In this document: piece after piece, positions 9,633 to 10,466 of the stretch
Position numbering within the stretch: position 1 is the first letter of the stretch
How the letters are laid out: each line of letters opens with the position of its first letter
DNA from: Kiritimatiellia bacterium
Lineage (GTDB): Bacteria; Verrucomicrobiota; Kiritimatiellia; JAAZAB01
Direction of reading: 5' to 3'
Length of the DNA: 43,828 nucleotides
Assembly (NCBI GenBank): GCA_028715905.1
Contig: JAQUQV010000015.1
Coordinates: 1 to 43,828, forward strand
Position numbers and translations under genes: made by a program
Notes under the pieces: model-generated
Database searches by the model: none
Told to the model about the DNA's origin: nothing
What the model saw: the letters and a program-made list of their open reading frames with translations, nothing else

Positions 9633-10466
9633 ATGAACTCGTTTACACAAAGATTCAGCAATAAAATCAAGGGCGTTATCAGCGGCTTCGACCGCAGCGT
9701 TTTCAAAGGCTGCCTCCGCCCCATCGCCTATGCCGACGGCGCCATGGCCTTCCTCCGCTGGCGCGGCGTCCTCAACAAAAACTACAAGCCCCGGATGATG
9801 GCCCAATCGAAATTGATCGTGGAACATGCCGACCGCTATGCGCGCAAAACCTGTGGACAAGGCGTTTCAATTAGGCCGCCAAAAGCGGCAACTGTATTTG
9901 AGCGGCGTAGGAGCCGCATCCCCATGCGGCGATTCCGGACGAACCGCATCCCCATGCGGCGATTCCAAACACCAGATGCATCGCCGAACAGGGGTTCGGC
10001 TCCTACCCCCGATTTTGCGCTCTTTTGCGGCAAGTTTGAAATTCTTATGCATGAACCTATTGCTTCCTCCAATGAACGCAAGGAAGCCATTGCCCATCAA
10101 CGACAACGCGACTTGGGCATCAAACACGGTCTCATCGGCGTCTGGTACTGCGTCGAAGTCTGTTCCTCTTTCCGCGCCCACTATGACGCCCAGGCCGGTT
10201 TCCCTCAACTGCGGCATCTCTTTTCCCGCTGCAAACATCTTTACTTTTATTACGACCATCCCCTCTTCGGCTTTATGAGTGTCCGCCTCCAAACCTGGTT
10301 CCCCTGCGGCATTCAGATCGCATTCAACAACCGCTTCATGGATCAAATGGCTGCCGTTAAAGACACGCGACCCTTCCGCCAAATCCTTGATGCTCTCTTA
10401 AAACCACGCCTTGCGGGGCAGGAATGCGGATGCGCCGCCCGAAACGCTATACTCGTGTATGCGTGA
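9633..10466 (+). pseudogene. Transposase-like multicopy-family protein, interrupted and truncated
   Basis: It starts at an ATG preceded by a strong AGGAGG. The N terminus (FSNKIKGVISGFDRSVFKGC, RPIAYADGAMAFLRWRGVLN) and a later block (GLIGVWYCVEVCSSFRAHYD, CKHLYFYYDHPLFGFMSVRL, QTWFPCGIQIAFNNR) match a family that I recall as uncharacterised and multicopy in PVC bacteria, behaving like a mobile element. Between residues about 78 and 140 the normal dozen linker residues are replaced by an in-frame insert carrying hairpin repeats (9875..10035). The C-terminal half expected after the NNR block is missing; the frame ends in unrelated residues. The family assignment is from memory, and catalytic residues are not known to me. 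Confidence 0.55.
9875..10035. repeat. Hairpin-rich inserted repeat element with a three-hairpin core
   Basis: The core spans 9907..10006: GTAGGA (9907..9912) pairs with TCCTAC (10001..10006) and encloses three perfect hairpins, each with a 4-nt loop. These are 9913..9930 (7-bp stem), 9944..9959 (6-bp) and 9983..10000 (7-bp). A 23-bp unit beginning CCGCATCCCC is repeated exactly at 9914..9936 and 9944..9966. Outside the core, GCCGC/GCGGC at 9875..9889 forms a further 5-bp hairpin, and the right flank (about 10020..10035) has a loosely matching GCGCTCTTTTGCGGCAA. It interrupts the transposase-like gene without breaking its frame. The outer limits are approximate. It looks like a REP/MITE-type non-autonomous element. 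Confidence 0.7.

Follow-up and report, generated by a model that had tools for sequence, protein, structure and literature searches.

The three-hairpin repeat lies inside a larger 182-bp unit, which we interpret (with a probability of about 0.8, judging from its sequence features) as a miniature, non-autonomous IS91/ISCR-type rolling-circle transposon with a REPIN-like palindrome array as its cargo. The window (i.e., the whole 43,828-nucleotide stretch of DNA that was analyzed; contig C15) belongs to a genome that was searched as 2.67 Mb in 141 contigs (96% complete), and copy counts were taken over the retrieved loci. The coordinates of the element, its parts, and the interrupted gene are compiled in Table 1.

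Table 1. Positions in the window of the putative IS91-type element, its components, its flanks, and the host gene
Feature	Position	Strand	Basis
Interrupted, C-terminally truncated multi-copy host gene, no family match	9633..10466	+	Copy alignment, profile searches
Left flank TTCAA (consensus TTNAA)	9866..9870	+	Position frequencies in 89 left ends
Whole element, putative non-autonomous IS91-type unit, 182 bp	9871..10052	+	Identity high inside, ~0.25 outside
Left end, terIS-like: TTAG, hairpin (9875-9879 / 9885-9889), and AAC	9871..9892	+	Pattern searches, 17 stems
REPIN-like cargo, GTAG...CTAC, three hairpins	9907..10006	+	Sequence, genome matches, folding
Forward REP unit 1, headed by GTAG	9907..9935	+	Pattern seen 29 times in the genome
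Second forward unit, without GTAG head	9936..9965	+	Missing from shorter copies
Inverted REP unit	9980..10006	-	Sequence and alignment of copies
Subterminal stretch TTGCGCTCTTTTGCGGCAAG, conserved in this subfamily	10015..10034	+	33 genome matches, 0 to reversed control
Right end, oriIS-like: TTGAAATTCTTATGCAT	10036..10052	+	Pattern frequencies; resembles ISCR27 oriIS
GAAC adjoining the right end; among the tetranucleotides known to be targeted by IS801 (IS91 family)	10053..10056	+	Window sequence; PMC3189936

A first-pass annotation of the window had described a 100-bp core with a 6-bp outer stem, three hairpins, and exact 23-bp repeats, and all of these were recovered. The stem pairs GTAGGA with TCCTAC (9907-9912 / 10001-10006), the hairpins occupy 9913-9930, 9944-9959, and 9983-10000, and the 23-bp repeats lie within a 30-bp tandem unit. 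Folding of the core was far more stable than that of shuffled sequences both as DNA (-27.3 kcal/mol; z = -5.2) and as RNA (-47.1; z = -5.3), and no shuffle matched it in either case. The three-hairpin, cruciform-like form that had been proposed (-18.4 as DNA, -37.4 as RNA) is nevertheless not the fold of lowest energy; a single long hairpin, in which unit 1 pairs with unit 3, is more stable (by about 9 kcal/mol as DNA). The core had no match in Rfam up to an E value of 1, and a known structured RNA was rejected as its identity on that ground. With GTAG-headed palindromic units, one or two of them forward, and an inverted unit that closes the series, the core looks like a REPIN.

There were 41 matches to the core in the genome (8 of them identical over 100 bp) and 48 matches to the longer unit; a search of the genome contigs collection, which possibly does not include this or very near genomes, gave no exact match to the core. 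When aligned, the dispersed copies consist of either one or two forward units plus the inverted unit. The expectations that further copies exist and that they vary in the number of the 30-bp unit were therefore correct, and the view that the repeat is more than a simple REP was right as well.

The genome contains at least four families of GTAG...CTAC arrays (A, the window type; B, about 13 copies; C, about 7 copies; and D, 1 copy). The identity among dispersed copies is mostly 0.9 to 1.0 from the left hairpin to the right end and about 0.25 beyond, and subfamilies A and B have sharp boundaries on either side. Both ends were present at 29 of the 49 core loci that were examined, and one end was flagged at 18; the remaining 2 loci, flagged as lacking ends, show the left end by eye, and a core free of the ends was found at none of the 49. 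The position of these boundaries indicates that the core itself is not the mobile unit and that the conserved, bounded unit takes in the outer ends. The proposal that the repeat is mobile thus holds in that a multi-copy, very probably mobile element is present, but it had been attached to the wrong unit, since conservation spans the whole element rather than the core. One locus is chimeric (C61, L024): an A element runs straight into a B element (GATTTTGCGC/AACTGTTATTTTTCGCATGTAGGGGG), with the right end of A and the left end of B lost.

The right end of the element (TTGAAATTCCTATGCAT) resembles the oriIS of ISCR27, which has been published as TTGAACTTCCTATAC (PMC8894482). The segment TTGAAATTCCTATGC is identical to this oriIS at 13 of 15 positions, and the full string is identical at 14 of 20, a score that was equalled by 11 of 20,000 shuffles; the identity to ISCR oriIS, for which the references were the sequences printed in two papers, is moderate (14 to 15 of 20). 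At the left end, IS91-family elements bear a GC-rich stem-loop (PMC3189936). The left ends of the family described here include 17 distinct, perfectly paired stem-loops at the same position, i.e., their sequences vary and the pairing is kept. The targets reported for IS801 are GAAC, GGAC, CAAG, or CGAC (PMC3189936), and a target of the GAAC type adjoins the window copy and some others. Across 113 right ends (those of genome G009 being among the matches listed), GAAC or CAAG borders the element in a minority of cases; the flank seen most often is (T)NAATTA.

A different explanation is that the element is a MITE of a DDE transposase that makes a short target duplication. Many copies are flanked by TTNAA left and right, with exact identity in some of these pairs. 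However, its variable base agreed between the two sides in 13 of 38 pairs versus 9.5 expected (p = 0.12), which is no more than chance and gives no support to a target duplication. Nor are the ends inverted repeats of each other, and the transposase with matching ends is a member of the IS91 (HUH) family rather than a DDE enzyme, all of which makes a DDE-type MITE extremely unlikely.

Two copies of the right end in the genome stand 3' of a gene rather than of a palindrome. Contig C16 contains a complete element composed of a left end with its hairpin, a 400-aa open reading frame, and a right end, and both ends match those of the 182-bp element. Profile searches identified the encoded protein as an IS91-family transposase (NF033538, E = 3.3e-87; PF04986; PF14319). 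Contig C56 contains a 3' remnant of an IS91 transposase gene with the same right end. The gene on C16 was the only complete IS91 transposase gene found in the genome, and a sequence search for a solved structure of its product yielded none. We infer that this protein could mobilize the 182-bp element. Close homologues are missing from most of the relatives that bear the ends, so the copies in those relatives must be fossils unless a different enzyme serves them. The relative G006 encodes, on contig C94 (L297), another and more distant IS91-like transposase, with about 26% identity. Downstream of it lies CTTTAAATTTCCTATAC, which matches oriIS weakly, and it has no recognizable left end; it was rejected on these grounds as the autonomous partner in G006.

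A TnpA-REP-like enzyme had been suggested as a possible companion of the repeat, and this suggestion was not supported. Two Y1_Tnp (IS200-like) genes are present in the genome (C84, L058; C51, L059), and neither is flanked by the repeat, the ends of which match an IS91-family transposon instead. No GTAGGAG repeat was found directly beside either gene; the nearest A elements lie about 0.7 kb (C51) and 2 kb (C84) away. The two genes scored 46 and 43 bits against the RAYT model, for which the cut-off is 80. We did not find a RAYT flanked by the same REP (i.e., GTAGGAGCCG units) in the genome, the 96% completeness of which leaves room for a missing gene. Both Y1_Tnp genes encode a DnaA-like C-terminal helix-turn-helix and have repeated GGGGAC-type sequences in their immediate flanks (ATCGGGGACGCGTCTC, inverted on both sides of one; TTGGGGACAGCCC, in tandem duplicate upstream of the other). 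Tyrosine transposases flanked by TIRs have been described (PMC3733652), and the two genes look like members of that type rather than RAYTs. If the element were a classical REPIN moved by TnpA-REP (RAYT), the GTAG-headed core would be the mobile unit and the conservation around it would be incidental. The GTAG head, the paired inverted units, and the high copy number are indeed traits of REPs and REPINs (PMC3116915, PMC3733652), the genome does contain Y1_Tnp genes, and G006 has REP copies outside any frame. Nevertheless, we consider such an origin unlikely, given that the copy boundaries fall at the outer ends and not at GTAG/CTAC, that the core does not occur without those ends in this genome, and that the Y1_Tnp genes have neither an adjacent repeat nor scores above the RAYT cut-off.

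In relatives (Lentisphaerae, Kiritimatiellae, and Verrucomicrobia MAGs of other species), about a dozen palindromic cargoes, or none, are found within the shared ends. Among 10 genomes of this family, the left end (TTAG, hairpin, and AAC) is present in 8 and the right end (ATTGAAATTCCTATGCATT) in 9 (the hits in G009 being among the matches listed), and the interiors differ; reversed control patterns of the ends gave at most 1 hit in any genome. Exact left ends are also present in public MAGs labelled Lentisphaerae, Verrucomicrobia, and Kiritimatiellae. The palindrome types found between the ends in relatives include GTAGCCGCGG, GTAGGGCGG, GTAGAGCC, GGATTCCCG...CGGGAATCC, and CTCTCC...GGAGAGG, and G005 has a 37-nt version that consists of the ends without cargo. 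The GTAGCCGCGG-type half-palindrome had 73 hits in G006 versus 18 left ends, and several of these hits lie outside any IS91-type frame; REP families therefore exist independently in relatives. Some of the 73 hits, which comprise CCACGCCCTCACGGGCGCGGCTAC and its variants, are tandemly clustered (L266, L262, L253, and L247). Such families have probably come to lie between the ends on more than one occasion, via the insertion of REPINs or via rolling-circle capture.

A further alternative is that the ends serve as a fixed landing site, in which case many REPIN families would have become inserted, independently of each other, into old copies of some small element, and the composite would no longer move. 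This would agree with the differing palindromes that occupy one position within the ends in different genera and with the cargo-free version in G005, and REP dimers within other palindromes are on record (PMC3733652). However, near-identical composites of cargo and ends sit in unrelated flanks in the genome studied here, which means that cargo and ends spread together there. A fixed landing site is thus very unlikely; it fails as a full account of the A and B copies, although it can explain the first entry of a cargo. Head-to-tail tandem arrays of elements were observed on contigs C22, C4, C41, and C84. Some arrays join different subfamilies (B-C, or B-C-A on C22), which abut at TTNAATTAGG (L210 on C22, L209 on C4, and L211 on C66), and this arrangement suggests that new elements may land beside existing ones.

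Under the interpretation as a miniature IS91-type transposon, an HUH transposase would nick the right end (oriIS), and a single strand would be transferred leftwards through the hairpin cargo until the transfer halts at the left hairpin (terIS). The strand would then be joined beside a GAAC/CAAG-like or an AT-rich NAAT target without duplication of the target. The core would be derived from REPIN-type families like those living independently in relatives, and it may have come between the ends via the insertion of a REPIN or via capture in a faulty rolling-circle transfer.

The element in the window interrupts a gene that had been described as transposase-like and as keeping its reading frame. 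The interruption stands, but the label was not confirmed, as the gene family had no match in Pfam, NCBIfam, or PHROGs. The genome has three copies of this gene (C15, i.e., the window copy; C42; and C9). The C42 copy bears the same insertion as the window copy, so the gene was probably duplicated after the insertion, and, compared with C9, both of these copies are truncated. The frame is indeed open in the window, where the left junction reads TCA, but C42 has TGA there. The open frame through the window gene is thus incidental and no evidence of function, and we rejected it as a sign of selection. The host gene family has a winged-helix-looking C-terminus and was repeatedly found with these elements; it is possibly an undescribed transposase.

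Precedents exist for IS91-type elements, REPINs, IS801 fragments without a gene, and REP dimers nested in other palindromes (PMC3189936, PMC3733652). In the open-licence papers that were searched, we did not find a case of one IS91-type end pair carrying many REP families across genera. We tentatively propose that the IS91-type ends in this lineage may be a shared vehicle that has repeatedly acquired and spread unrelated REP/REPIN families, like Helitrons that carry cargo. The spread of REPs is debated and is usually attributed to TnpA-REP. If the proposal is true, REPs would be disseminated without a TnpA-REP enzyme of their own. With another enzyme class, ends that can be recognized, and a candidate full-length transposase encoded by the same genome, this would be a testable second route of REP spread, and the same ends with many cargoes and with an empty 37-nt version would provide bacterial material for work on how cargo is acquired by rolling-circle transposons.

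Among known systems, the IS91/ISCR elements (i.e., IS91, IS801, ISCR1, and ISCR27) share with the present element an oriIS-like right end, a GC-rich stem-loop at the left, and, at the window copy, a GAAC-type target, and an IS91-family transposase with the same ends is present in the genome. Unlike them, the element is gene-less, is 182 bp long, has a palindrome array between its ends, and usually has an AT-rich (T)NAATTA flank rather than strictly GAAC/CAAG. The GTAG head, the palindromic units with a closing inverted pair, the many copies, and the variable unit number are shared with REPINs and BIMEs of the GTAG class of REPs, whereas the core in this genome is never outside the IS91-type ends, is not accompanied by a REP-flanked RAYT, and has its copy boundaries beyond the REPs. 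The miniature IS801 fragments of Pseudomonas syringae (PMC3189936) are likewise derived from a rolling-circle element, have no gene, and retain the right end, which is essential; they differ in being parts of the IS and in having no left end. By analogy, non-autonomous Helitrons are also gene-less rolling-circle elements with varied captured interiors, although Helitrons are eukaryotic. The GTAG-15 dimers of Anabaena variabilis, which are nested in palindromes (PMC3733652), are similar in that REP dimers regularly occur inside another repeat; there, one REP family is combined with one palindrome, while here many REP families are combined with one IS91-type end pair across genera.
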